64,000 nt of DNA from Kitasatospora sp. NBC_00374 (lineage in GTDB: Bacteria > Actinomycetota > Actinomycetes > Streptomycetales > Streptomycetaceae): the NCBI RefSeq assembly GCF_041434935.1, contig NZ_CP107964.1:2232001-2296000 (forward strand). Direction: 5' to 3'. The notes beneath the pieces are model-generated. The model saw only the letters and a program-made list of their open reading frames with translations. It was not told the origin of the DNA and ran no database searches. Position numbers and translations under genes: made by a program. Shown here piece by piece: positions 22,587-46,351 of this stretch. Position 1 is the first letter of the stretch. The number at the start of each line of letters is the position of its first letter.

Positions 22587-23420
22587 TCATCCGGCGAGTT
22601 CTCCGAGCCGGGTCCGCAGGGCTCCCTCCAGTTCGAGGTTGTCGCCCCGGGTGGTGGACTGCAGCAGCTCGGTGATGACAACCAGCTCGGCGAACCGTCC
22701 GCTGCGGCTGTCGAGGAGGTACCCGAGACGCTCGCGGATCCGGGCGGCGGTTTCGGGGACGAGGAGGCTGTAGGCGTACAGGAGGGCGGCGTCGTAGCCG
22801 GCGGGTGCGGCGCCCCAGCCTTCCCAGTCGAGGATGGCGAGCCGGGGACGGGTGAGGTTGGCCCAGTGCAGGTCACCGTGGGCGGTGGACCAGGCGGGGG
22901 CGGCGGTGTCGACGGCGATGCCCAGGTACTTCGGCATGGCTCTGTCCAGGTATGCCTGGCGGACGGCCACCCGGTCACTGGGCACGGCGGCGATGGCGTC
23001 GAGTGCGGTGCTGAGGCCGTCCCACCAGGCGTCGTCCAGGTCCGGCGCCGCCTGCAGGACGGGCTCGTGACTGGTGACGGTGGGGTGGGTGGCCTTGTCG
23101 TACAGCTCCGCCAGGTAGCCGTACTCGCCCTCGGTCCAGGTCCGCCGCCCCCGAAGGCGTGGGCGGGGCACCGCAGAAGGCATCGAGCGCTCGGCCTCCT
23201 GCGGTCCGGTCCAGAGCCTGCCGCCGGCCCTGTGAGCCGGGGCGGACACCACCCGGAGCCAGCCGTCACCGGACGACGTGGCAACCGGGCGGCCGAGCGT
23301 ACGTCCGCGCCAGCCCCATGCTTCACGCGAGCCGATCGGCGTCGCGTCGAGCGCCACTGCCGCGAAGATGTGCATCCCGCGCATCCGCCCGGCAATCTCC
23401 GGCTCAGGTTCCGAGTACAT
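22587..23420 (-). CDS. APH-like phosphotransferase
   Basis: 277 residues. The C-terminal half has the aminoglycoside-phosphotransferase catalytic core: STAHGDLHWANL (catalytic HGDLHxxN) and LAILDWEGWGAAPAGYDAALL (metal-binding DWE). The N-terminal lobe is short and diverged. The natural substrate may be a sugar, amine or peptide side chain. It overlaps the stop of the aldo/keto reductase gene by 17 bases and is the last gene of the peptide/JmjC/AKR/APH operon, so a role in modifying the same product is plausible. Confidence 0.82.
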   Translation of the reverse strand: MYSEPEPEIAGRMRGMHIFAAVALDATPIGSREAWGWRGRTLGRPVATSSGDGWLRVVSAPAHRAGGRLWTGPQEAERSMPSAVPRPRLRGRRTWTEGEYGYLAELYDKATHPTVTSHEPVLQAAPDLDDAWWDGLSTALDAIAAVPSDRVAVRQAYLDRAMPKYLGIAVDTAAPAWSTAHGDLHWANLTRPRLAILDWEGWGAAPAGYDAALLYAYSLLVPETAARIRERLGYLLDSRSGRFAELVVITELLQSTTRGDNLELEGALRTRLGELAG

Positions 23421-24300
23421 CCGTGATCCTTTGCAGCGCGTCCGGAGACAATGGGGGCCGAGCGAGGGCGGCGGCGGCCTGCCTCCAGTGTTCCGGGTTT
23501 CCCGTCGACAGGAGTACGCGCTTGACCCCGGGGGCTGAGGCGACGACGGCCAGGGCTGCCTGTGCGGGTGTGATGCCAGGGCTGATCAGGTCGGACAGCT
23601 CGCGGCTGACCATTCCGGGGAGCTCGCCCCCGTGCAGTGGGGCGGAGGCGAACACCTCCAGTCCTGCTTGCGGGGCCTCGGTCAGCACGCCGTGCCCGTT
23701 GAGGGCTTGGGCGACCGGTGCGAGGTGGACGAGGGAAACGGGGAGCTGGACGGCTCGCAGGTGGTGCTGCCGGCCGCCGGCCTTGGTCGCGAGTTCGAGC
23801 AGGGCTGGCACGTCGAAGAGACGACTGCTGAAGCCCCGCCAGGTCGCCACCCCGTAGGCCCTGACGGCGCGTTGGTTGCACGCCTCCTCGAGGGCCAGGA
23901 AGGCGGTGTAGAGCCGGTCGGCGATCTCGCTCTCGTGGCAGCCGTGTTCCGGGTTGTGCAGGAACACCAGATCGGGTGTGCGGTCGAGCATGCGCTTGCT
24001 GCGCGCGACCTGCCAGGAGATGTAGTCCGGAGCGAGGCAGTGTCCGCGCTCGGCATCATCGGCGGACAGTGCCCTGGCACGCACGCCGGTGCGCTTGGCG
24101 CTGGGCGGGACGAAACCGACCTTGGTGGAGACCCGTAGGTACTGGTAGGCGGCCAGGACGGGGGCGAGCGACGTCTCAGCCCGGCCGCTCTCGTAGTTGG
24201 GTGCTGTGTCCACCCAGTCGGCGCCGTTGGAGGCGGCCATCAATGCGGCCTCGGCCACGTCGAGACAGCGGTAGGTGCCGAGAGCAAGCCGAGCGGTCAT
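23404..24300 (-). CDS. Aldo/keto reductase in small-peptide operon
   Basis: 298 residues with a complete AKR tetrad: D31 and Y36 (WVDTAPNYESG), K60 (VSTKVGF) and H115 (LVFLHNPEHG). It lacks the usual GTK-like C-terminal coenzyme loop and instead ends GVKRVLLSTGNPEHW, so it belongs to a divergent branch. Its ATG overlaps the stop of the JmjC gene by four bases (ATGA), which means coupled translation. Probably it reduces a carbonyl on the product of this operon or on an intermediate; the substrate is not known. Confidence 0.85.
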   Translation of the reverse strand: MTARLALGTYRCLDVAEAALMAASNGADWVDTAPNYESGRAETSLAPVLAAYQYLRVSTKVGFVPPSAKRTGVRARALSADDAERGHCLAPDYISWQVARSKRMLDRTPDLVFLHNPEHGCHESEIADRLYTAFLALEEACNQRAVRAYGVATWRGFSSRLFDVPALLELATKAGGRQHHLRAVQLPVSLVHLAPVAQALNGHGVLTEAPQAGLEVFASAPLHGGELPGMVSRELSDLISPGITPAQAALAVVASAPGVKRVLLSTGNPEHWRQAAAALARPPLSPDALQRITDVLGT

Positions 24301-25484
24301 TGCCAACCCCCGATCGCGGCGACCTGGCCGTCGACCAGCTCCGTTACGAGGCCGGCCACCTGCGCGAGGGTGATGTCTGCGGCCTGCGCGAGATCGGCGA
24401 GCCGGTGGCTTCTCCCGTCGGCGAGGAGCGCGAGGAGTGGCTCGGCCTTGGCCGCGAACGTCCACTGCTCGCCGCCGGCGGTCAACCGGACGGCGCCCTC
24501 TGGTCCAGCCGCGAGCGAGGGCCGCGTGGTGACGAGACGCACCCGCAGGTCCGCTTCTGGCGGAGCCGCCGTGATGTGCGGCAGAGACGGAACGAGCCTG
24601 GCCCGCTCAGTGGCGTCGCGGGCTGAGGAGAACCGTGTGATCAGGTCCGCGCTCTCCAACTCGGCGGCGACGAGTTTGCCGATGGTGTCGAGGAAGGCCC
24701 GCTGCTCCTCGGCGGTGCCGAAGCGCGGGATGTCCGCCCGGACGGCCTCGTGAGCGCGCAGGATCTCCGACAGCCAGGTGACCAGGTCGGCACCCGTGGT
24801 GCTCTGCAGTCCGCACGTGACGTGCAGCGAGTGCTGGCCCTCCGAGGCAGCGACGGCGTGCCACCAGCCCCGAGGCAGGTAGAGCACGTCGCCGGCGGTC
24901 AGCACCAGGTCGGCGACGGGCTTCTCCTGCGGCGGCGCGGGCATGTCGACATCGCGGTGCATGGGCGCGGTACGGGTCGGTCCATAGATGCGCCAGCGCT
25001 TCGCGCCGTCGAGCTGGACGACCACCACGTCGTGATCGTCCCAGTGGACGCCGAATCCCTCGGTACTGGTCCAGGAGGCGTACAGGTTGACCTGCACGCC
25101 GGTTCGCAGCCAGCGCTCCAGTTGACCGGCCAGAGCGCCGATTCCGGGGTGGAGTTCGTCGACGGCGTCCAGGACCAGCGTGGCTCCTTCGGCGAGCCGC
25201 TTGTGCAGCTCGGCGGGCTGGAGCTGGTTCCAGACTGTGCTTCGCCGGGTGACGATGGGGCGCGAGTACATGTGCGCCGGCACCTGCTCCCCACCGGCGG
25301 CGAGTCGGAAGCGAGGGGGTTCGAACCGGTGATGGGTCAGGATGGCGTTGAGGTCATCCCAGTTCATCAGTTCGGTGAGTGACACGGCATCGCCGCGTGC
25401 GACCTTGAAGCTGCGGCCGAGCGTCCGGGCGAGGAAGTCATCCCCGCCCAGACGCTCAACCACCGAGAACTGCTCGGCGGTCAT
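24297..25484 (-). CDS. JmjC/Cupin_4-type 2-oxoglutarate oxygenase
   Basis: 395 residues. The JmjC barrel has the iron triad HWD (H147, D149) and distal H209 in LYLPRGWWHAV, plus the dimerisation and winged-helix region seen in ribosomal oxygenases (YcfD, MINA53 type). Known relatives hydroxylate Arg or His side chains of ribosomal proteins, and some act on peptide natural products. It starts 11 bases after the stop of a 46-codon peptide gene and is coupled to the AKR downstream, so the adjacent peptide is a candidate substrate. The start ATG 25484 has only a weak ribosome site. Confidence 0.88.
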   Translation of the reverse strand: MTAEQFSVVERLGGDDFLARTLGRSFKVARGDAVSLTELMNWDDLNAILTHHRFEPPRFRLAAGGEQVPAHMYSRPIVTRRSTVWNQLQPAELHKRLAEGATLVLDAVDELHPGIGALAGQLERWLRTGVQVNLYASWTSTEGFGVHWDDHDVVVVQLDGAKRWRIYGPTRTAPMHRDVDMPAPPQEKPVADLVLTAGDVLYLPRGWWHAVAASEGQHSLHVTCGLQSTTGADLVTWLSEILRAHEAVRADIPRFGTAEEQRAFLDTIGKLVAAELESADLITRFSSARDATERARLVPSLPHITAAPPEADLRVRLVTTRPSLAAGPEGAVRLTAGGEQWTFAAKAEPLLALLADGRSHRLADLAQAADITLAQVAGLVTELVDGQVAAIGGWQ

Positions 25485-25495
25485 TGGGGCAGCCG

Positions 25496-25636
25496 TCAGT
25501 CGTTGGTGTCGGTACGGCCGGTGGAGCCGCCGTCCGAGGGCTGCTCGCCGCGCGAGCGGGCCGCGGCGACCTTGGTGCGGGAGACGAGCAGGCCGTCGCC
25601 CTCCAGCTCGGTGCTGGTGCTGAGGTTCTCGGGCAT
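25496..25636 (-). CDS. 46-residue peptide heading the JmjC operon (candidate RiPP precursor)
   Basis: The peptide reads MPENLSTSTELEGDGLLVSR at its start, continues through TKVAAARSRGEQ, and ends in a Gly/Ser/Thr/Asp-rich tail. It has no Cys or Trp. AAGGAGGG four bases before the ATG is one of the strongest ribosome sites in the window, so it is translated. It has no signal peptide or membrane segment. Position at the head of an oxygenase/reductase/kinase-like operon fits a modified-peptide precursor, with Arg, Lys, Ser and Thr as possible sites. A small regulatory or binding protein is the alternative. Confidence 0.65.
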   Translation of the reverse strand: MPENLSTSTELEGDGLLVSRTKVAAARSRGEQPSDGGSTGRTDTND

Positions 25637-25832
25637 TGCGCCCTCCTTCGGGTACGTGGAGCCTGGCCGGTTGCCGGGCTCCGGTGGTATTTGCGGCACG
25701 AGTTGCCCAGTGGGAACGGGCGCCATCACCGCGCCTGCAGGTGCCTGCGCCGCTCGTCTGGAGATCGGCGTGAGCTGTGCTGCAGGGGTCCCCGACACCA
25801 CGGGCCAGTCTCGTCGGAGCCAGCGGCGTCGA

Positions 25833-25888: not shown

Positions 25889-26353
25889 TCAGATCGTGCG
25901 GGCCAGACCGGCGCGGCGATGTTCGGCCGTGAGCGCAGGCTCAGACGGCCCGCCGCTCGGCGCCGGCCGCGGGCTGATGTTCAGCTCGGCCCAGGCCTTC
26001 TTGCCGCGCGGGGTGGGGCTGCTGCCATGGCATCGGGCGAGCGCCTCCACCAGGAAGAGACCGCGCCCGCTGGTGTCCTCCCTGTCGGCGACACCAGGTG
26101 CCGGGACTTGAGGACTGGCGTCGTACACCTCGATGAGCAGACGGTCGCGGCTGGCGTGAACCGCGATGGTCACGAGATCCCCACCAGCGTGGATCACCGA
26201 GTTCGTTACCAACTCGGAGACCACTACCGCGACATCGCCCGCCGTCTCCTCGTCGAGCCGTATCCCCCAAGCACGGAGGGCGGCCAACACCCTGCGGCGT
26301 AGGGGAGCGACGATCGAGGGACTGGCGGGAACAACGAACCATGCGGCAGGCAT
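25889..26353 (-). CDS. ATP-binding protein of the anti-sigma-factor kinase fold
   Basis: 154 residues with one HATPase_c_2 domain: VVVSELVTNSVIHAG is the N box, LLIEVYDASP the G1 box, and GRGLFLVEALA the G2 box. Streptomycetes carry dozens of such RsbW-like proteins, usually beside an XRE regulator. ATG 26353 follows GAGGAG six bases upstream. The gene is divergent from the XRE-TPR regulator, with a short palindrome between them. Confidence 0.88.
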   Translation of the reverse strand: MPAAWFVVPASPSIVAPLRRRVLAALRAWGIRLDEETAGDVAVVVSELVTNSVIHAGGDLVTIAVHASRDRLLIEVYDASPQVPAPGVADREDTSGRGLFLVEALARCHGSSPTPRGKKAWAELNISPRPAPSGGPSEPALTAEHRRAGLARTI

Positions 26354-26513
26354 AGCGGTCTCCTCGGCGTGTGGGTGTGGTTCCGTGACGCACAGGAAGC
26401 TGAGCCCCGGATCTGAAGCCACCCAGGCGCAGGAAGAGGCATCTGCAGCCGAGTTGTCCCGGCGCTTGGGCGACTGATGATTAGTCAACCGCGAAGCGCT
26501 CACCAACGGTACG

Positions 26514-26524
26514 GTGGTGACCAC
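26514..26524. promoter_or_regulatory. Short palindrome in front of the XRE-TPR gene
   Basis: GTGGT-G-ACCAC is an 11-bp inverted repeat just upstream of TATACG (26533-26538), a possible -10 element. It may be an operator for the regulator it precedes. Confidence 0.4.
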
Positions 26525-26565
26525 ACAGAGTGGTATACGAGGTTTACAGCCCGGATCGGGGGATC

Positions 26566-27918
26566 GTGGCCGCGCAGAAGGAACCCAATGACAGGCTTCG
26601 GGATGCGATCTCAGCAACCAACTGGACCTACGAGGCCCTCGCGTCCGCCGTCCGCCGGGTAGCTGCCGAGAACGGCGAGACTCTGCGTACCAACAAGTCG
26701 GCCGTCGCCCACTGGATCGACGGAGCCCGCCCCTCAGGCCAGGTCGGCCAATACCTTGCTGAAGCCCTGTCCCGCCGGGCGGGACGATCGGTCACCCTCG
26801 TCGAGATCGGCCTCGCGGCAGCCGAGGAGTCCCTTGCCGCCAGCGCCGACCCAGTGCTCGCCGCCACAAACCTGGGCCGCGCCGACGTCGACCGCCGGCG
26901 CTTCCTCGCCGTCGCGGCGTTCACCGCCGCCGGGGTTGCGATGCCCCTGAGCTACGACCACGAAGCCGTCTCCCGCCTCCTGCGAGCGCGCGCAGGTGTG
27001 AGCCTGGCGGGTGAGGCAGAGGTCGAGGTTGTCCGTCAGATCACCGCCGTCTTCAGCGCGGCAGACGAACGCCTTGGGGGCGGCCACGGTCTCACCACCG
27101 TGACTGCTTATCTTGCCGACACCGCCGCGCCGATGCTCAGCGGGCGCTTTCCGAGTGAGAAGGTCCGGCGACAAGCCTTCGGCGCGGTCGCCGAACTCGC
27201 CTACCTCGCAGGTTGGAAACACCACGACCTAGGCCAGGAAGGCGCTGCCCAGCACTACTACCAGGTGGGTTACCAGCTCGCTTGCGAGGCGGATCCGAAG
27301 GGCCATGCCGGCTGGATGATGCGGGCACTTGCCCACCAAGCCCTGAGCCTGAAGCAGCCTCACCACTGCGTCGATCTCATCGAAAACGCACTCGGCCGGA
27401 GCCTCGGCCACGTCGACGGCCAGACCGAAGCCCTGCTGCACATCACCCACGCTCGCGCGTACGCAGCCACCGGAGAAAAGACAGCCGCCGCGAAAGCCCT
27501 CCTTGCCGCCGAAGATGCCCTGACGAGGCACACCGAACCGCAGCCCAGCTTCTCCCTGGTCAGCGGACCCGCCGCCGGTACCGTCGCCAGCCACACCGCC
27601 AGGACCCTCACGGACCTCTCCGATCACGTCGGCACCGAGCAACAACACCGGGCCGCTCTCGTCCGCTGGGACGCCGAGAAATACCGACGCGTCCACGTGC
27701 TCACGTACGCCGACCTCGGAGACAGCCTCGCTGCGCAGACGCGCGCCGACGAGGCCATTGCGACCTGGAGCCAGGCCATGGACCTCATGGAAGGTATGTC
27801 CTCGGACCGCACCAGAAAGGCCGTCTCCTCCATCAGACCCAGCCTGGCGATCTACCGTGGACGCGGAGTTCCAGGGGCGGCCGAGCTGGAACGTCGAGCC
27901 CGAGACGCCCTGATCTGA
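26566..27918 (+). CDS. XRE-type regulator with TPR domain
   Basis: About 450 residues. The N-terminal helix-turn-helix reads NWTYEALASAVRRVAAENG then TNKSAVAHWIDGARP; the rest is helical repeats (QEGAAQHYYQVGYQLA, QPHHCVDLIENALGR and others), the layout of streptomycete regulators that bind a ligand or peptide in a TPR groove. A FLAVAAFTAAGVAMP stretch near residues 112-127 resembles a buried hydrophobic helix of this group. GTG 26566 has a GGGGGA site; GTG 26530 is in frame upstream. It is 27 bases from a Nudix gene that it may be co-transcribed with. Confidence 0.85.
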   Translation: MAAQKEPNDRLRDAISATNWTYEALASAVRRVAAENGETLRTNKSAVAHWIDGARPSGQVGQYLAEALSRRAGRSVTLVEIGLAAAEESLAASADPVLAATNLGRADVDRRRFLAVAAFTAAGVAMPLSYDHEAVSRLLRARAGVSLAGEAEVEVVRQITAVFSAADERLGGGHGLTTVTAYLADTAAPMLSGRFPSEKVRRQAFGAVAELAYLAGWKHHDLGQEGAAQHYYQVGYQLACEADPKGHAGWMMRALAHQALSLKQPHHCVDLIENALGRSLGHVDGQTEALLHITHARAYAATGEKTAAAKALLAAEDALTRHTEPQPSFSLVSGPAAGTVASHTARTLTDLSDHVGTEQQHRAALVRWDAEKYRRVHVLTYADLGDSLAAQTRADEAIATWSQAMDLMEGMSSDRTRKAVSSIRPSLAIYRGRGVPGAAELERRARDALI

Positions 27919-38140: not shown

Positions 38141-39760
38141 TCAGTGGCCGCCGCACTCCCCCGCCCGGCGGGCGATGGTGTAGTGGTCGACCTGGGTGCC
38201 GTCCTCGGCCAGCGCGGTGACCTTCATGGTCGCGGTGCGGCCCGGGTGGGCGGGCACCACGTCCACCTTGATGAAGGAGTAGCCGGTGTAGCGGACCCGG
38301 GACCACTCGACGGTCTCGGCGACCTTGGTGCCGCCCTTGGCGAAGTGGTACGTGGCGATCGAGTCGACCCGCTTCTCGTGGCCCTCGTAGCTGTCGGGCG
38401 CGTCGAAGAAGTACAGGCTGCGGCCGGCCGCGCCGGCCGTCACGTAGACCACGCCGTCCTTGGCGGGCTCGACGGTGGCGCCGCTGGGCACCGCCTTGGA
38501 GACCTTGTTGCCGAGGATCGCGTCGGTCCGCTCGTAGACGTGGTTGTGACCGTTGATCACCAGGTCCACCCGGTACTTCTCGAACAGCGGTACCCAGGCC
38601 TCCCGGACACCGCCCTCGGAGGCGTGCTGGTGGGTGGTGGAGAAGGCGCAGTGGTGGAAGAAGACCACGACGAAGTCGACGGTGTCGTCCTGGCGCAGCT
38701 CGTGCAGTCTGCGGTCCAGCCAGGCGGTCTGCCGGCCCGCGGTGATGCCGAGGTTGGCGGGGATCTCGTACGAGACGTCGTTGGCGTCCAGCGAGATGAC
38801 GCCGACGTTGCCGTACGTGAAGGAGTAGACGCCGGGGGCGGTACGCGGGTCCGGGCCGTTGCGCGGGAGGAGGAAGCGGGAGGACTCGCCGCCGTAGCCG
38901 TTGGGCGAGTACCAGGCCTCCATGTCGTGGTTGCCGTACGAGACCATCCACGGGACCTTGGCGGCGACCGTCTCGGTCTGGGCCAGGAAGCGGTCCCAGG
39001 TGGTGGCGTCGTAGACGGCCTTGTCGGAGTCCTGGCCGGAACCGGCCGGGTCGGCGTAGCAGATGTCGCCGGCGTGCAGGTGGAAGGCCGGCTTCTGGGC
39101 CAGGATGATGTGGTCGTTGCCGGCCGCGTGGGCGCTGACGCCCTGGTCGCCGAAGGCGGTGAAGGTGAACGGCGCGAACGGGCGGCCGCGCCGCCAGGAC
39201 CGGGCCGGGGCGGTGCGGAAGGTGCTCAGGGTCGAGACGGCCTGGTGCGAGGCCGGGTCGAAGCCCTGGTGGCCGACGCCGTAGTAGTAGGTGGTGTCGG
39301 CGTCCAGGTGGTCCAGCTCGACGTGCAGGTAGTACTGGTCGACGGGCGTGCCGGTCGGGGTGAGGGCGGGGGTGTGCAGCGCCCGCACCTCGGCCTCGAC
39401 CTTGTGCCCGAGGTCCCACGGGTGCCGGCCGTACCGCAGGAACGGCTTCTTCACCGGGGCCGGGACCTGCCAGGAGATCCGGAACTGGCGGTCCGGCTCG
39501 GCGCCGAAGGCGAGGTGACGGCCGATCGGCGCCACCAGGGCGCCGTCGATGCCGTCGGTGGTGCTGCGGACCGGCGCGGCCGGATCGGCGTACGCCGTGC
39601 CGGAGCCGAGCGCACCGCCGACGGCGAGCACGCCGACCGTGACGGCGCTGGAACGCAGCAGCTTGCGGCGGGAGAGCGTGCTGCGCAGGTACTCGTGCTG
39701 CTCGGCCATGCTCATCCGGTCGGCGAGCTTCTCGGGCACGCCCATGCGGGGGATATCCAT
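38141..39760 (-). CDS. Tat-exported purple acid phosphatase-like metallophosphoesterase
   Basis: 539 residues with a twin-arginine signal (SRRKLLRSSAVTVGVLAVGG), an N-terminal fibronectin-like domain (ISWQVPAPVKKPFLRYG) and a metallophosphoesterase domain with all five motifs: FGDQG, HAGDICYAD, GNHDMEAW, FFHHCAF and NGHNHVYER. It hydrolyses phosphomonoesters outside the cytoplasm in folded form. One GTTCACC heptamer lies upstream at 39805-39811 on the minus strand, but a full PHO box is not seen. The start MDIPRMGVPEK at 39760 has no clear ribosome site. Confidence 0.9.
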   Translation of the reverse strand: MDIPRMGVPEKLADRMSMAEQHEYLRSTLSRRKLLRSSAVTVGVLAVGGALGSGTAYADPAAPVRSTTDGIDGALVAPIGRHLAFGAEPDRQFRISWQVPAPVKKPFLRYGRHPWDLGHKVEAEVRALHTPALTPTGTPVDQYYLHVELDHLDADTTYYYGVGHQGFDPASHQAVSTLSTFRTAPARSWRRGRPFAPFTFTAFGDQGVSAHAAGNDHIILAQKPAFHLHAGDICYADPAGSGQDSDKAVYDATTWDRFLAQTETVAAKVPWMVSYGNHDMEAWYSPNGYGGESSRFLLPRNGPDPRTAPGVYSFTYGNVGVISLDANDVSYEIPANLGITAGRQTAWLDRRLHELRQDDTVDFVVVFFHHCAFSTTHQHASEGGVREAWVPLFEKYRVDLVINGHNHVYERTDAILGNKVSKAVPSGATVEPAKDGVVYVTAGAAGRSLYFFDAPDSYEGHEKRVDSIATYHFAKGGTKVAETVEWSRVRYTGYSFIKVDVVPAHPGRTATMKVTALAEDGTQVDHYTIARRAGECGGH

Positions 39761-39874
39761 GGCGGAGAGATTCGCACCGCGCGGTGGCGCGTGCACGGAC
39801 GTTCGGTGAACGAGCGACTGACGGCGAGTCTGCCGGTGCGCAAGATTGCGCCATGGGTTCGCAAAGTGCGGCAC

Positions 39875-41197
39875 CTACGACTCCTCGACGGGTTCGGCCG
39901 GCCGCAGGCGGCGGGCCGCCCAGACCCCGCCGGCGATCATGAACAGACCGCCGACCGCGAGGACCGTGTCGATCCGGCCGAAGTGCACCCCCGCGACCTC
40001 GGTGTCCAGCCCGCGCAGCGCGGTACTGGCCAGGAATCCCGCCAGCGCCATCGTGGAGATCGCGGCGAGCTGCTGCACCGGGCCGATCACCGTGACCACC
40101 CGGCCGAGCAGGTGCTGCGGGGTGACGCCCAGCAGCAACGGGCCCACCACCACGTTCACCGCGCCCACCGGCAGGCCGATCAGGGCGAGCACCACCAGGG
40201 CGAGCGGCAGTGCGGTGAGCCGGGAGTAGAGGACGACCCCGGCGCCGGTCAGCACCAGGCAGAGCCAGTAGATCCGGTGGTCGCTCAGCTTGCCGGAGAC
40301 CGCGCCCGCCAGCAGCCCGCCGAGCAGCGTCCCGACCGCGAACCCGGCGCCCAGGGTGCCCAGCCAGGAGGCCGCGGAGTGCAGGTTGTCGGTGACGAAG
40401 AAGACGTCCAGCACATTGAGCGCGCCGACACCGAGGGTGTACACGCACACCGAGCCGAGCAGGGCCATCAGGACGCGGTTGTGCACGAAGAAGCTGATGC
40501 CCTCCCGGAAGTCGGCCCGGAAGGTGGACGGCCCCCGGTCCGCCGGGCGCTCGGTGGGCGCCACCACCAGCGACCTGATCAGCAGGAAGGACAGCACGAA
40601 CGAGCAGGCGTTGGCCACCAGGGCCCACTGCACTCCGGCGGTGAACAGCAGCGGCGCCGCCAGCGGCGGGCCGATGATGCCCGCCGCGCTGCCGGTCGCG
40701 GAGGTGAGGCTGAACGCCCGGGTGCGGTCCGCCTTGGGGACGGTCGCGCCGATCACCGCCAGCCGGGCCGGGTTGAAGAACTGCCCGGCGCCCGCGCAGA
40801 CCGCGACCGCGGCGTAGACCAGGGCGAGGGCGACTCCGGTGGGCAGCCGGTCGCCCGCGAGCGGCACCAGCAGCAGGGCCAGGATCACGGTGGCCCGCAG
40901 CGCGTCGGTGGCGAGCATCAGCCGCCGCCGGTCCCACCGGTCCACGAACACCCCGGCCACCGGCCCGACCAGCAGGGTCGGCACGGCCGCCGCCAGCAGC
41001 ACACCGCTGACCGCCGCCGGCGCCCAGCTCTGCCCCTTGGCGAGCACCGTGCCGACCCAGAGCACGACAGTGGTGTCGAAGACGAAGTCGCCGACCACCG
41101 AGACCGCCTGGCCGAGCCAGAGCCGATGCCAGTTGCGGTTGTGCCGCAGGCCGTCGGCCTGCTTCGGTGGAGCCTGGGCCGGCACGGTGTCGGTCAT
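39875..41197 (-). CDS. MFS transporter, last gene of the RiPP cluster
   Basis: 440 residues with about twelve hydrophobic segments and the MFS_3-type signatures GPVAGVFVDRWDRRRLML and GQFFNPARLAVIG typical of enterobactin-exporter-like (EntS) drug transporters. Its ATG overlaps the stop of the JmjC gene by four bases (ATGA) and GGGAGG lies five bases upstream, so it is coupled to that gene. It is the likely exporter of the cluster product or a self-protection pump. Confidence 0.9.
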   Translation of the reverse strand: MTDTVPAQAPPKQADGLRHNRNWHRLWLGQAVSVVGDFVFDTTVVLWVGTVLAKGQSWAPAAVSGVLLAAAVPTLLVGPVAGVFVDRWDRRRLMLATDALRATVILALLLVPLAGDRLPTGVALALVYAAVAVCAGAGQFFNPARLAVIGATVPKADRTRAFSLTSATGSAAGIIGPPLAAPLLFTAGVQWALVANACSFVLSFLLIRSLVVAPTERPADRGPSTFRADFREGISFFVHNRVLMALLGSVCVYTLGVGALNVLDVFFVTDNLHSAASWLGTLGAGFAVGTLLGGLLAGAVSGKLSDHRIYWLCLVLTGAGVVLYSRLTALPLALVVLALIGLPVGAVNVVVGPLLLGVTPQHLLGRVVTVIGPVQQLAAISTMALAGFLASTALRGLDTEVAGVHFGRIDTVLAVGGLFMIAGGVWAARRLRPAEPVEES

Positions 41198-42183
41198 CTC
41201 GCCTCCCTCGGGCGGTGCGGGGCCGGGCGGGGCGGCCCCGAGTGGGTGAGGGCGCGCAGCAGGGAGCCGCCGCCGGTGGGGACGGACCGCGGCCGGGCCG
41301 GCCGGATCCGGTCGGCCGTCTCCTTGGCGTCGGCCGCGGCCGGCGCCGCCGCCAGCCGTCTCCTGAGCTCGGCCGCCCGCTCGGTCAACTGCCGCTCGAA
41401 CTCCTCTGGTTCGAGCCGGTGGAAGCCGTACGGCAGGCACTCGCGGAACGCCTCGGCGGCCAGCACCCGGTCCACCAGCGGGCGCAGCACCGCGCCCCAG
41501 GTGACCGGGCGCAGCGCCACCGACAGATGGACGGACGCCTCCTCGGTGGCGTCCCCGACGTGGACGAAGCCGCGCGGGATGTACAGGCACTCGCCCGCCC
41601 GCAGGACCACGTCCAGCAGTGGATCGGGCTCCGGGCCGGGCCGGGCCGCCGACCACTCGCGGACCGGCCAGCGCTCCGGCGGCCGGGAGACCCGCCAGCG
41701 TTTGGAACCGTGCACCTGGCGCACCAGCACGCCGGCCGTGTCGTAGTGCGGGGCGACGCCGCGCGCACCGGCCGGGGTGAGGAAGGCCGCGCAGTAGGTG
41801 GCGAAGCCGGTCTCGTCCGTCAACTCCCGGCAGAACGCGGCGACCTGGGGGCAGTAGGTCTGCAACTCCTCCAGGACGAGCGTGGCACCGGCGGCGACCT
41901 CGCGCTCCACCGCGCGGCCGTCCACCAGCAGCTCGCGGCGGCCGGCGGACCGTTCCCGGCCGCGGCCGACCCGGGCGGCGGGCACCTCCTCGCCGTCCCG
42001 GAAGAGCCGGACCGACGGCACCGGCAGACCGGTGGTGTGGATCAGCCGCTCGGCGGTGCGGGCGTCGAAGACGTCGGAGAAGGAGCCCAGGGCCACGGCG
42101 ACGAACGGTTCGTCCTCCCAGTGCTCCCTGAGCCGGTCGGGGTCGCCGACCAGGCGGGCCACGCTGCCGGCCACCGTCCTCAC
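41194..42183 (-). CDS. JmjC/Cupin_4-type oxygenase in the RiPP cluster
   Basis: 329 residues. The iron triad is PHYD (H146, D148) and H208 in CLYIPRGFVHVG; HGSKRWRVSRPPERWPV follows the first motif as in YcfD-type ribosomal oxygenases. The GTG start overlaps the upstream stop (GTGA) and its stop overlaps the MFS start. It probably hydroxylates a side chain of a cluster peptide or a protein. Only 10-12 short stretches match the JmjC enzyme at 24.3-25.5 kb, so the two are distant relatives rather than a recent duplication. Confidence 0.85.
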   Translation of the reverse strand: MRTVAGSVARLVGDPDRLREHWEDEPFVAVALGSFSDVFDARTAERLIHTTGLPVPSVRLFRDGEEVPAARVGRGRERSAGRRELLVDGRAVEREVAAGATLVLEELQTYCPQVAAFCRELTDETGFATYCAAFLTPAGARGVAPHYDTAGVLVRQVHGSKRWRVSRPPERWPVREWSAARPGPEPDPLLDVVLRAGECLYIPRGFVHVGDATEEASVHLSVALRPVTWGAVLRPLVDRVLAAEAFRECLPYGFHRLEPEEFERQLTERAAELRRRLAAAPAAADAKETADRIRPARPRSVPTGGGSLLRALTHSGPPRPAPHRPREAR

Positions 42184-43241
42184 ACCCCCGCCCGGCTGCG
42201 GCTGGAGGCCAGCGCGGCGTGCAGCCGATGGGTGACCTCGGCCAGCCGCGCGGGCTCCCCCGGGCGGGGCGGGGCCGGTTCGCCGAGCCGGAGCAGGACA
42301 CCGCGGACCAGCGGCGCGTCGCCCCGGGCCTCGGCGAGCGCGGCGCGCAGCAGGATCCGGCCCTGCCGCTCCCGGCCGGCCCGCTGCAGGGTGGCGCCGA
42401 GGACGGCCCACCAGCGCGGCACCGTCAGCGGGGAGGCCCAGGGGCCGGGCAGGCTGCCGACCGGTTCGACCAGGGACTCGGCGAGTTCGGCCGCCTGCTG
42501 CGGCCGGCCGTGCTCGGCCGCGTGCGCGGCCAGGTGCAGGGTGCGGACCACCGCGAGGCGGCGGGCCATCGGGTCCGGGTCGGTGAGGGCGGCCGGCCCG
42601 GGGGGCCCGGCGGTCTCGGCGCCGAGCAGCCAGGGGGTCTCGGCGGCGTGCTGGATGCCGTGCGCGACCAGGGTGGGCCAGCGTTCGGCGAACCGGGCGG
42701 CGGCGGGCGCCAACAGGTCGGGCCGGGCCCGGCGGTGCAGGATCCGGCAGGTGTCGCTGACCCGGATGTTGCGGGCCAGCGCCCTGATCCGGCGGGCCAG
42801 GGCCGGGTCGTCCGCGAGGTCCTCGGGCCACCAGTCGATGTCCTGGGTCTGCACCCGCTGGCCGTCGGCGATCCGCTCCAGGGCGGCCAGCCCGGCCAGC
42901 GCCCGGTCGAGCCCGCCGGCGTACCCCTCGATCCGGACCAGGTTGACCTGCGGCTGAAGGGCGAGCGCGGCGACCTTGGCGGTGTGCGGGCCGCGGCCGT
43001 CGTGGACGCGGCTGCGCGCGTACGCGGTCTCCGCCCGGCACAGGGCCCGGGCGTGTTCGGGACGGCCGAGCCGGAAGTGCACCAGGGCGATCAGGTTGGC
43101 CGCCACGAAGAGCGGTTCGGGGTCGTCGTCGGCGGGCCGGGACAGCAGCCCGAGGGCCCGGTCGACGGCGGCGGACTCGTTCTGGGGGACTCGTTCCTCG
43201 TCGGAGAGGAAGCCGAGCCAGTTCGGTGCCGGTGCTGTCAC
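42180..43241 (-). CDS. Helical repeat protein of unknown function in the RiPP cluster
   Basis: 353 residues, soluble, mostly helical, with TPR-like pairs (FVAANLIALVHFRLGRPEHARALCRAE and QQAAELAESLVEPVG) and a WWPEDL motif in the middle. I do not recognise the family. The GTG start overlaps the LanB stop (GTGA) and its stop overlaps the JmjC start, so it is expressed with them. A scaffold or peptide-presenting role is possible but is a guess. Confidence 0.75.
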   Translation of the reverse strand: MTAPAPNWLGFLSDEERVPQNESAAVDRALGLLSRPADDDPEPLFVAANLIALVHFRLGRPEHARALCRAETAYARSRVHDGRGPHTAKVAALALQPQVNLVRIEGYAGGLDRALAGLAALERIADGQRVQTQDIDWWPEDLADDPALARRIRALARNIRVSDTCRILHRRARPDLLAPAAARFAERWPTLVAHGIQHAAETPWLLGAETAGPPGPAALTDPDPMARRLAVVRTLHLAAHAAEHGRPQQAAELAESLVEPVGSLPGPWASPLTVPRWWAVLGATLQRAGRERQGRILLRAALAEARGDAPLVRGVLLRLGEPAPPRPGEPARLAEVTHRLHAALASSRSRAGV

Positions 43242-46222
43242 AGCGCGGCCTCCTTCGGGGTTCCTGACGGGCGGTCGAGGGTCGTGCCGGTTCGGGCGGT
43301 GGCAGTCGTGCGGGTGGTGGCAGTCGTGCGGGTGGTGGCCGTGGTGGCGCTCTGGCGGTCGAGCAGGCGGCGCCACAGGCCGAGGGCGGTGCGCTCACGG
43401 GCCCGGTCCAGGCCCAGCCGGTTGGCGTGCAGGTGGAGCAGGGAGGCCACGGCGTGTCGGCGGCGCTGCGCACCCTCCGGGCCCGGCCAGTGCTCGGCCA
43501 GCAGGCGCCGGTACTCGGCCGCGGGCGGCGCCCAGTGGGCGGCGACCAGGTCCGGCCCGGGGCTGCCCCCGGCGCGCAGCCGCCACAGGTCCCGGCCGTG
43601 GGCGCGGTGCTCGTGGGAGCCGTCGCGGGTGTCGGCCACGGCGGCCGCGAGGGCCCGCCGCTCGCGGAGGTCGGGCAGGAGCAGGGCGGCGATCCGGTCG
43701 AGGGTGAGGGCCGCGAGCGCGGCCGGCGGCAGGCCGGGCGGGGGCCGGCGGGCCGGCTCGGTGGTGAGCAGGGCGGCGACGGCCGCGGAGTCGGCGCAGA
43801 ACAACCGCTCGGCGGCGCCGATCAGTTCGGGGCCGCCGTAGCGGTCGGTCTCCGGCCGGTAGCCGCGGACGACGACCTCGTGCAGAGGCAGCCGGTGGGC
43901 GCACTCCCGGGCCCAGTCGAGCAGTTCGTCCAGCCGGCCGGGCTCTCGGCGGACCCTGACCCGCAGGTGCTCGACCGGGTCGGCGTAGCGGACGAAGAAC
44001 AGGTGCGACCGGGGCAGGCGGGCCGTCAGGTCGGCCAGCAGGGCGTCCTGCCAGGGTGCGCGGAGGTGGAGGTGGAGGGAGAGCCAGTCCGGCGCGGGCC
44101 GGCCGGGCCGGACGGACGGCGCGGCGGCGGGTGCGGGTGCGGTTGCGGCGGCAGTCACGGCGGCGGGCAGCAGGGTCACGGGGACCACCGCTTCGAGGGC
44201 GTGGCGCCCGCCGTCGGCGCCGGTGACGGGTTCGCCGCCGGGGGCGGGGACGGCTTCCTCCAGCAGCAGCCGGGCGTCGCCGGCGCGGTCCAGGGCGTGC
44301 CGCAGGTGGGCGAGCGAGACGGCGCTGTCCAGGTCCAGCAGCAACTGCCGTCCCGTGCGCACCAGGTGGAGGTGGCGAGGGGCCAGCCAGCGGTCGGCCC
44401 AGGCCCGGACCTGCCGGGCCGAGCAGTCTCCCAGCTCGCGGCGGTCGGGACGCCAGCGGGCCGGGGAGACCACCAGGCCGCGGTGTTCGAGCCGGGGCTG
44501 GAACGGCCCGCGCCCGGCCGCCCCCCAGTCGAACGGCGCCGGGTGGCGGAACTGGTTGGCGGAGGCGTCCAGCAGGAAGCGGCAGACCGGCGGGGCCAGC
44601 CGCAGGTCCAGCCCGCTGGCCTGGGTGAGGTGCAGCAGGTGACCGGTGGCGGCCTCGCGCAGCTCGAAGCGGCCGTCGCTCACGGCGACCAGGACCTCGG
44701 CGAGGGCGAGTTGCGGCGCCTTGCCCGCGGGCGGCAGGTCGACCGCGAGCTGCCGGGCGCGCCAGACCTCCCGGGCGGCCACGTTCGCCGCCGCGGCCTC
44801 CTCGGGCCGGTAGCGCAGTTCGACGAAGCGGTGTCCGGGGGCGGCGCCCTCCTCCGCCGTGAAGGCGGCCCGCAGGGCGGCCCGGGCGGGCTCGTCCAGC
44901 AGGTCGGTCGCCCTGCCGTAGGCGACCCCGGCGGGGACGGCGCCCGGTCCGGCGAGTGCGGCCCGGATCCCGCCGCCAGGCGTGCGGGCGATCCGCAGGC
45001 AGATGTCGGCGCCGGGCAGGGCCGGACGCCGCAGGTCGATCGGGCGCTCGGCGCCGAGGCGGGCGAGCAGGTCGTCGTCGAGTTCGCGGACCGGCCGGCG
45101 GTGGGCGAGGGCCTCGACGACCAGGGTGGCGAGCAGGGTCTCGCGGTGGTCGGGCGCGACCGGCCCGCCGGCGTCCAGGGCCCGCAGGTCGGTGAGGGTG
45201 TGGACGGCTTCGAGCGCCGGCACCCGGGCATGGTCACCGTAGTGCTCGGCGAAGGCGGCCGCCGCCCGGGCGAGGTACGCCGGGTAGCGGCTGCCGCGGC
45301 CGATCAGGACGAGCACGGCGGCGGCCTGTTCGGCGTAGCGGGCCACCGCCCGGTCGAGGGCGAGCGGCCCGGCCGGGCGGGCGACGGCGTCCAGGTGCAG
45401 GGCGGGCCGGGGGCGGGTGCGCAGGGCCGTCCGGAGCCGGTCGAGGGCCTCGGCGGGGTCGGCGGTGTTGAGCCGCTCGCACAGGCCCAGCAGCGGCCCG
45501 GGGGCGGCGGGTTCGGGCCCCGCGGTGCGCAGGAAGCCCCGGCGGAGCAGTTCGCGGACCAGGCGGTGGGCCGGCCCGGGATCGGAGGTGCCGTAGCGGC
45601 GGCCCAGTCCGGCGACGAGCTCGGCGAGCGGGACGGGGCGGGCGGCGGCGCGCAGCACCGCCAGGGCCGGCCCGCTGCCGCGCAGCCAGTGGGCGGCGCC
45701 CGGCCCGGCGGGCTCCCGCCAGGGATGTCCGTCGGGGGCGTGTACCAGGTCGGAGACCTGGACCAGGGTCCGGCCGTCGGGCTCGGCGCCGCCGGGCCGG
45801 GGTCGGCGCAGGGCGGCGTCCGGGCGCGCCACCGGGCGGGCGGGGCCGGCCAGGTGCAGCCGGGGGCGGGGCCCGAAGGGCGCGGCGGTGACGGCGGCGG
45901 CCAGCCCGAAGGGGGTGGGGCGGGTGCTGAGCCGGTTGAGGCAGCGGTCCAGCGCGAGGGCCGTCCGCGGATCGGCCGGCCCGCCGGGGCCGGTGAGCGC
46001 CTGGGCCAGGGCCGGTGCCGCGTGCTCGACGGCGGTGGCCACCAGGGAGGTCCGCCAGGCCTCGGCCAGCAGGGCGCGGTGCGTGACGGGCCAGTGCGGG
46101 TCGTCCGCCGGGCAGGCGGCGAGCAGGTCGGAATACCGGTCCGCGGGCAGTGCCGGAATGCGCAGCACGGCCACCTCGGCGGCCCGGTAGCGGGGGGCAT
46201 CGGGGTGTTTCCGGTCGACCAT
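43238..46222 (-). CDS. lanB: Full-length LanB-type lantibiotic dehydratase
   Basis: 994 residues containing both halves of class I dehydratases: the glutamylation domain (about 1-650; LNRLSTRPTPFGLAAAVTA is the LanB signature RMSTRPTPFGL) and the C-terminal elimination domain (about 715-960; DWLSLHLHLRAPWQDALLAD, FFVRYADPVEHLRVRVRRE). Such enzymes use Glu-tRNA to glutamylate and dehydrate Ser/Thr of a precursor peptide. A 50-codon precursor gene with Thr and Ser near its end lies directly upstream. The C-terminal tail holds an 18-bp tandem repeat giving Thr-rich TATTRT repeats. No LanC is in the window. ATG 46222 follows GGGAAAGGG. Confidence 0.9.
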   Translation of the reverse strand: MVDRKHPDAPRYRAAEVAVLRIPALPADRYSDLLAACPADDPHWPVTHRALLAEAWRTSLVATAVEHAAPALAQALTGPGGPADPRTALALDRCLNRLSTRPTPFGLAAAVTAAPFGPRPRLHLAGPARPVARPDAALRRPRPGGAEPDGRTLVQVSDLVHAPDGHPWREPAGPGAAHWLRGSGPALAVLRAAARPVPLAELVAGLGRRYGTSDPGPAHRLVRELLRRGFLRTAGPEPAAPGPLLGLCERLNTADPAEALDRLRTALRTRPRPALHLDAVARPAGPLALDRAVARYAEQAAAVLVLIGRGSRYPAYLARAAAAFAEHYGDHARVPALEAVHTLTDLRALDAGGPVAPDHRETLLATLVVEALAHRRPVRELDDDLLARLGAERPIDLRRPALPGADICLRIARTPGGGIRAALAGPGAVPAGVAYGRATDLLDEPARAALRAAFTAEEGAAPGHRFVELRYRPEEAAAANVAAREVWRARQLAVDLPPAGKAPQLALAEVLVAVSDGRFELREAATGHLLHLTQASGLDLRLAPPVCRFLLDASANQFRHPAPFDWGAAGRGPFQPRLEHRGLVVSPARWRPDRRELGDCSARQVRAWADRWLAPRHLHLVRTGRQLLLDLDSAVSLAHLRHALDRAGDARLLLEEAVPAPGGEPVTGADGGRHALEAVVPVTLLPAAVTAAATAPAPAAAPSVRPGRPAPDWLSLHLHLRAPWQDALLADLTARLPRSHLFFVRYADPVEHLRVRVRREPGRLDELLDWARECAHRLPLHEVVVRGYRPETDRYGGPELIGAAERLFCADSAAVAALLTTEPARRPPPGLPPAALAALTLDRIAALLLPDLRERRALAAAVADTRDGSHEHRAHGRDLWRLRAGGSPGPDLVAAHWAPPAAEYRRLLAEHWPGPEGAQRRRHAVASLLHLHANRLGLDRARERTALGLWRRLLDRQSATTATTRTTATTRTTATARTGTTLDRPSGTPKEAAL
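43301..43336. repeat. Tandem 18-bp repeat in the lanB 3' end
   Basis: Two perfect copies of GGCAGTCGTGCGGGTGGT (43301-43318 and 43319-43336), with a partial third copy to about 43347. In frame they encode alternating Thr-Ala-Thr-Thr-Arg-Thr. It looks like slippage-generated low-complexity tail. Confidence 0.8.
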
Positions 46223-46320
46223 GCGCCCTTTCCCACCCCTCGGTCTGACATTCGACTGTCGGCCATTCGGCGCGCGGGCACCGGAATAGCACGGGCTTTC
46301 CGCGCCGCGCGGCCCACGCC

Positions 46321-46351
46321 TTGCCGGCGGCACCTGACGGACCGTCGGCAA
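46321..46351 (-). terminator. Hairpin between precursor peptide gene and lanB
   Basis: TTGCCGGCGG (46321-46330) pairs with CCGTCGGCAA (46342-46351) with one G-T wobble, 24 bases after the precursor stop. A leaky terminator here would give more precursor than enzyme message, a common RiPP arrangement. Confidence 0.6.

Follow-up and report, generated by a model that had tools for sequence, protein, structure and literature searches.

A Kitasatospora operon coupling a conserved acidic peptide to a JmjC oxygenase, and its relatives across Actinobacteria

What does an operon make when it opens with a 46-residue peptide and continues with an oxygenase, a reductase and a kinase-like protein? The question is raised by a stretch of 64,000 nucleotides from Kitasatospora sp. 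NBC_00374 (contig NZ_CP107964.1, positions 2,232,001 to 2,296,000), which was analysed as a whole and is called the window here. On its minus strand lie, in this order, the peptide gene and the genes for a JmjC oxygenase, an aldo/keto reductase (AKR) and an APH-fold kinase. The comparisons below indicate that these four genes probably form a compact maturation pathway resembling those of ribosomally synthesized and post-translationally modified peptides (RiPPs), with the 46-residue product, MPENLSTSTELEGDGLLVSRTKVAAARSRGEQPSDGGSTGRTDTND, as the precursor. The features of the operon are as follows.

25642..25648, minus strand: ribosome-binding site AAGGAGG, 5 nt 5' of the peptide ATG, read from the sequence
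25496..25636, minus strand: precursor-like peptide gene, 46 aa, stop included; open reading frame (ORF) with a strong ribosome-binding site, kept before JmjC
25544..25594, minus strand: putative leader/recognition segment GLLVSRTKVAAARSRGE, residues 15-31
25499..25537, minus strand: conserved C-terminal core SDGGSTGRTDTND, residues 34-46, from the alignment of 72 distinct peptides
24297..25484, minus strand: JmjC_2 (PF08007) Fe(II)/2-oxoglutarate oxygenase, 395 aa, with a C-terminal winged-helix domain
23404..24300, minus strand: aldo/keto reductase, 298 aa
22587..23420, minus strand: APH-fold kinase, 277 aa

The genes are tightly packed: the JmjC ATG follows the peptide stop after 11 bases, JmjC and AKR overlap by 4 bases, and AKR and APH by 17. 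This order, the spacings and the very strong ribosome site had been described in a reading made from the sequence only, and the coordinates and the AAGGAGG motif agree with it. All four genes follow the normal actinobacterial codon bias (third-position GC of 96% in the peptide gene, 86% in JmjC, 84% in AKR and 87% in APH), and the ribosome-binding motif precedes 68 of 69 homologous peptide genes. On the plasmids pSV2 and NZ_CP026654, RefSeq annotates the peptide as a 'hypothetical protein' coding sequence.

Coupling of the peptide to the oxygenase

Among 61 genomes of the same genus, the peptide is found in 25 and JmjC, at E<=1e-50, likewise in 25. All 32 peptide copies lie directly 5' of JmjC on the same strand. 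Only four JmjC matches lack the peptide; all are relatives of 34-42% identity, and two of them have another acidic peptide. The adjacency of peptide and JmjC is therefore more than chance. The sequence-only reading had named a peptide unconserved in homologous operons as the observation that would speak against it, and the peptide proved to be conserved. A scan of GTDB genomes extended the set to 80 loci in Kitasatospora, Streptomyces, Streptacidiphilus, Actinomadura/Spirillospora/Actinocorallia, Nocardiopsis and relatives, which belong to the Streptomycetaceae, Thermomonosporaceae and Nocardiopsidaceae. By tblastn and ORF inspection, the peptide stands just 5' of JmjC in nearly all of them and is followed in most by AKR and APH. 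The locus thus contains what defines a RiPP system genetically, a short precursor gene tied to its modifying enzymes. The window genome itself holds a second copy of the whole operon (C1:6.167 Mb), with a JmjC 50% identical and the peptide MESMTPAVQDNEGGGLLVAVRNIRAARSRADLPSDNTGGKSDQNDT.

The peptide has a variable N-terminus, in both length and sequence, and a strongly conserved remainder. The consensus of the 72 distinct peptides reads G-L-(L/V)-V-A-R-x-x-I-x-A-A-R-S-R-x-x-Q-P-S-D-G-G-S-T-G-(R/K/V)-(S/T/G)-D-x-N-D, and the core SDGG(S/G)TGx(S/T)DxND is near-invariant across the 80 loci. In window numbering, L16 and R27 of the upstream segment and S34, D35, D43, N45 and D46 of the core are invariant in 72 of 72 sequences, and G40 is kept in 71. 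The peptides of Thermomonosporaceae and Nocardiopsidaceae carry 1-5 extra residues beyond ND. In the Kitasatospora-type set, pN/pS falls from 0.65 at the N-terminus to 0.38 in the middle segment and 0.22 in the core; over all 69 sequences the synonymous sites are near saturation, and that value was not relied on. Cys occurs in none of the 72 sequences, in keeping with the earlier view that no Cys chemistry is involved. Neither Pfam nor NCBIfam contains a family matching the peptide (E up to 1 for the window peptide, up to 10 for its relatives). A reading of GGSTGKS as a Walker-A motif was rejected by eye for its wrong spacing. Two copies, L071 and L081, are apparently frame-disrupted: the core SDGGGTGKxDGND is readable in them in a frame other than that of the leader, either by decay or by assembly error.

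The oxygenase matches PF08007 (JmjC_2) with E=1.3e-30 and 106 bits against a Pfam cut-off of 22, and H147-x-D149...H209 and K162 are invariant over 43 JmjC sequences. Its AlphaFold model (pLDDT 90.7) ends in a winged-helix of bbbb-aaa-b topology at residues 314-391. No PqqD/RRE Pfam match was found in the operon proteins; a domain similar to this bbbb-aaa-b unit is carried by NO66/RoxA-type enzymes. The top Foldseek matches of the model are NO66, MINA and RoxA/YcfD, which are protein hydroxylases.

The three enzymes and the proposed maturation route

The reductase matches PF00248 (Aldo_ket_red; E=5.7e-14, 52 bits against a cut-off of 24), and its tetrad-like residues D31/Y36/K60/H115 are at least 93% conserved. 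The kinase matches PF01636 (APH) weakly, at 1.7e-4 and just below the Pfam cut-off, and retains the motifs HGDLHWAN (H181 and D183 invariant, N188 near-invariant) and LDWEGWG (D198 and E200 invariant), so that the HGDxxxxN and D-x-E/D metal-site signatures of APH kinases are both present. Its model (pLDDT 96.2) has a complete two-lobed APH fold. The first Foldseek match of this model is TvaE with its leader peptide (E 4.5e-6). In VIA-align the best match is APH(4)-Ia (Z 16.6, rmsd 3.6 over 244 residues); LxmK is matched as well (Z 15.1, rmsd 3.8 over 243 residues). The predicted fold is thus compatible with peptide phosphorylation but does not demonstrate it.

One clade, with a 33-aa peptide (MDNLIVSKRTVKAARTQDRLSDGGGTGKGDGND), has APH directly after JmjC and no AKR nearby. 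The four JmjC sequences sampled from it form a single group (support 100/97) nested within the AKR-bearing ones, and the reductase was therefore probably lost once. A well-supported clade without AKR excludes the reductase as an essential part; the constant core is therefore peptide, JmjC and kinase. The sequence-only reading had proposed a modified-peptide pathway of peptide, oxygenase, reductase and phosphotransferase. It is borne out by a conserved peptide that is strictly tied to JmjC and by catalytic residues kept in all three enzymes, and it needs amendment in that the reductase is dispensable.

These features suggest the following route. The precursor would consist of the variable N-terminus, an LL(V/I)xR...AARSR segment that is probably recognised by the enzymes, and the acidic core SDGGSTGx(S/T)DxND at or near the C-terminus. 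JmjC would bind this precursor, probably helped by its C-terminal winged-helix domain, and would hydroxylate at least one invariant Asp or Asn of the core, most likely at the beta carbon. The kinase would next phosphorylate the invariant Ser34 or the new hydroxyl. S34 is the first candidate because it is the only invariant hydroxyl residue of the peptide. AKR, where present, would tailor a carbonyl/alcohol step.

Parts of this route have parallels in known systems. BipG, a JmjC enzyme of the biphenomycin RiPP, acts as a gamma-ornithine hydroxylase on Orn (PMC12707348) and, by analogy, is a direct precedent for a JmjC enzyme acting on a ribosomal precursor. In the biphenomycin systems (BipG/BpmG/PbsQ, JmjC or cupin hydroxylases), a JmjC-domain Fe(II)/2-oxoglutarate enzyme likewise hydroxylates a precursor residue (PMC12707348, PMC12257519), but their core is Phe-Arg-Phe and they need an MNIO, a B12-rSAM enzyme and an arginase, whereas the operon has an acidic Asp/Gly/Asn core, AKR and an APH-fold kinase. 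With a core that is not of the Phe-Arg-Phe type, membership in the biphenomycin family was rejected. Kinase-fold proteins act on RiPP precursors in class V lanthipeptide and thioamitide systems (LxmK, TvaE, RosX; PMC12291118). Unlike RosX and TvaE, which lack kinase residues (PMC12291118), the operon kinase retains the canonical catalytic ones. The operon peptide, having no Cys, could yield neither lanthionine nor AviCys, which excludes a lanthipeptide. A survey of RRE domains (mSystems 2025) describes RRE-like folds fused to PF08007 and bacterial homologues in RiPP-like contexts (PMC12710340); the part of that paper drawn on here mentions neither a precursor family nor a gene set nor an acidic core. 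A published description of the gene set or of the peptide motifs was not found in the open-access literature, and, as before, no described family was recognised.

An alternative use of the kinase deserves weight. JmjC may hydroxylate the peptide while the kinase serves self-protection, phosphorylating and thereby inactivating the finished product in the cell as antibiotic phosphotransferases do. The closest solved structures by Z are indeed antibiotic phosphotransferases, the corramycin phosphotransferase is also among the structural matches, and the kinase gene is the last in the operon. However, that gene overlaps the preceding one and is kept in the clade without the reductase, and the core is nearly invariant, unlike that of a diversifying antibiotic. 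We regard this explanation as unlikely, though still worth attention.

Acidic-peptide relatives across Actinobacteria

The pairing of JmjC with an acidic peptide recurs beyond this family. A sister group (L096, L097 and L098; JmjC about 33% identical) has AKR- and APH-like genes together with a different acidic peptide, DLLIGVESLITVQDRF(T/S)AxAAESDPTGTS(A/S)GDDGxNRDGLNLPQE. A broader JmjC_2 group (query L104) was found in 35 of 396 actinobacterial genomes and 27 of 237 genera. A small Asp-rich ORF (14-38% Asp) lies no more than about 100 bases upstream of JmjC_2 in 29 of 30 loci (L106-L135), and Asp-rich peptides also lie directly upstream at L089, L090, L101, L102, L104 and L105. These ORFs commonly have a DDD(I/M) or (S/T)D(E/A)DI motif near the start and continue with repeats such as EGPADGGSNPGGHDGGADGTA or DADGTDGDATDGD. 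Under the same ORF rule, at least 13.5% Asp was reached at 1.2% of 3000 random positions and at 1.6% of 1038 gene starts, and 25% at none. In the tree, JmjC of the broad Asp-rich group forms one group (100/98) and the window family another (85/84), which includes three peptide-less relatives.

No AKR or APH homologue was found at L101, L102 or L104, three loci of the Asp-rich group with longer flanks. In the repeat unit of the Asp-rich group, A-D-G-G takes the place of the S-D of the kinase-bearing families. This contrast fits S34 as a candidate kinase target, though the groups compared are distant.

Sequence comparison thus suggests that, throughout the Actinobacteria, JmjC_2 oxygenases have acidic peptides as their paired substrates; the window operon would be a branch with a kinase and mostly a reductase. 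A broader proposal, to which we give somewhat less than an even chance, is an undescribed, phylum-wide peptide class in which JmjC_2 would hydroxylate its paired Asp-rich peptide, either single-core (SDGGSTG-type) or many-core (DGGADG / DADGTDGD repeats), to give products rich in hydroxy-Asp. The window operon would then be a branch whose kinase and reductase lead to a conserved phosphorylated signal or metal ligand. These phylum-wide relatives, like the linked regulator described below, go beyond what the sequence-only reading had noticed.

Two further observations concern JmjC_2 genes. At L101:4720-5643, a sucrase/ferredoxin-like gene (PF06999) lies directly 3' of JmjC in the same direction, and L104 has a similar-looking ORF; its product is possibly an electron-carrier partner of JmjC. 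The window itself contains a second RiPP-like cluster on the minus strand (38141-46351), with a lantibiotic dehydratase at 43238-46351 (Lant_dehydr_N and _C), a second, diverged JmjC_2 at about 41287-42024 that is 30% identical to P0002, an MFS-like transporter ORF and a TPR-like ORF. JmjC and LanB in one cluster are an unusual combination.

Regulation, distribution and the remaining alternatives

Iterative profile searches placed an HTH/XRE-type regulator gene near the operon in 79 of the 80 loci, mostly divergent and upstream, and about half of the loci have an RsbW-like HATPase between regulator and peptide. The corresponding genes in the window are as follows.

26530..27918, plus strand: divergent regulator-like protein, 462 aa, grouped with HTH/TPR regulators by custom profile search only, with no Pfam match
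25889..26617, minus strand: HATPase_c_2 (RsbW-like) protein between regulator and peptide (PF13581, E=4.4e-13)

HTH_31 is matched 70 times in the 9.2 Mb of the window genome, or roughly once every 132 kb, and the regulator profile has two matches in the whole 64-kb window; the linkage is therefore above background. The kind of regulator differs between clades (DUF5753, TPR-like, SLOG-like). In the Thermomonosporaceae loci L056, L058, L061, L062 and L072 it carries a SLOG-like domain alongside a weak HTH (weak Pfam matches, L056), a combination that suggests sensing of a nucleotide-derived ligand. Beyond regulator and HATPase, the clades have no neighbour in common, and none of the four operon proteins matches a PADLOC anti-phage defence model, a comparison that would miss an undescribed defence system.

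The operon is patchily distributed. A convincing peptide occurs in 3 of the 396 genomes phylum-wide. A genome may hold up to three copies, and a relative is present on 44 plasmid records, including pSV2 (L136) and NZ_CP026654 (L137); 39 of the 44 are from Streptomyces and 11 are typed as mobilizable. Relaxase-, GntR- and integrase-like neighbours, assigned by eye only, are seen at some loci and suggest mobile elements.

With a regulator adjacent in 79 of 80 loci, an alternative is that the peptide serves as a subunit with a regulatory or accessory role, or as an unmodified signal sensed by the neighbouring regulator, and that the enzymes make or modify something else. The regulators with TPR-like, DUF5753 or SLOG-like domains would suit such a role, as would the lack of a conserved exporter or protease. 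However, the peptide tracks the oxygenase: regulators vary between clades while the peptide-JmjC pair is constant, and distant JmjC relatives have acidic peptides of very different sequence, often repeats, as expected for substrates. This explanation appears improbable. It is highly improbable that JmjC is a ribosomal-protein hydroxylase of the NO66/RoxA type with a conserved small ORF adjacent by chance. NO66, MINA and RoxA/YcfD are its nearest solved relatives by sequence and fold and share the JmjC_2 domain, the HxD...H site and a similar overall fold, but they are conserved ribosome-modifying genes, whereas the operon JmjC is coupled to a peptide, is missing from most same-genus genomes (present in about 41%), reaches 2-3 copies in some and occurs on plasmids, which marks it as an accessory gene; JmjC_2 genes are moreover paired with acidic peptides phylum-wide. 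That the small ORF is a mere translated leader (an attenuator or coupling ORF) with a functionless peptide agrees with its shortness and its place directly upstream of JmjC but is scarcely credible given selection on the amino-acid sequence, invariant residues across at least three families and an ORF-to-JmjC distance that varies between clades.

Several points weigh against the peptide-maturation pathway itself. Directly observed are the order of the genes, their conservation, the catalytic residues, the predicted folds and the recurring JmjC/acidic-peptide pairing; from these we infer that the peptide serves as substrate, which of its residues are modified, how the steps follow one another and what the product does, and hence every modification. 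The core is more conserved than the N-terminus, whereas natural-product RiPPs mostly show the opposite. NO66/RoxA enzymes, whose targets are ribosomal proteins, have the C-terminal winged helix as well, so its presence does not specifically prove that the precursor is bound. The kinase fold resembles small-molecule kinases (APH(4)-Ia) no less closely than peptide kinases (LxmK), and another target, for example in self-protection, is possible. The JmjC relatives L088, L094 and L095 have no adjacent acidic peptide. No dedicated protease or exporter conserved across clades was found within about 6 kb of the operon loci, though housekeeping enzymes may supply these functions.

If the peptide is matured as proposed, three features bear on its role: the core is conserved beyond usual RiPPs, a regulator lies nearby, and the operons share no protease or exporter. 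They make a conserved signal, cofactor or metal ligand the probable product, active inside the producing cell or close to it. Both hydroxy-Asp and phosphate bind metals well. Patchy distribution and carriage on plasmids, together with the nearby regulator and a core strongly conserved over several families, suggest that the trait is accessory and its product single and conserved, unlike a varied antibiotic.

With one peptide and three enzymes, the system is small and its chemistry easily testable in E. coli. If the proposal is true, a large number of bacterial JmjC_2 oxygenases, which at present carry no annotation beyond 'cupin domain-containing protein', would gain a natural substrate. The proposal would also define a RiPP-like class with an acidic core free of Cys and aromatic residues, peptides that current mining rules may miss. 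The extreme conservation of this core argues for a defined biological role and against chemical warfare.

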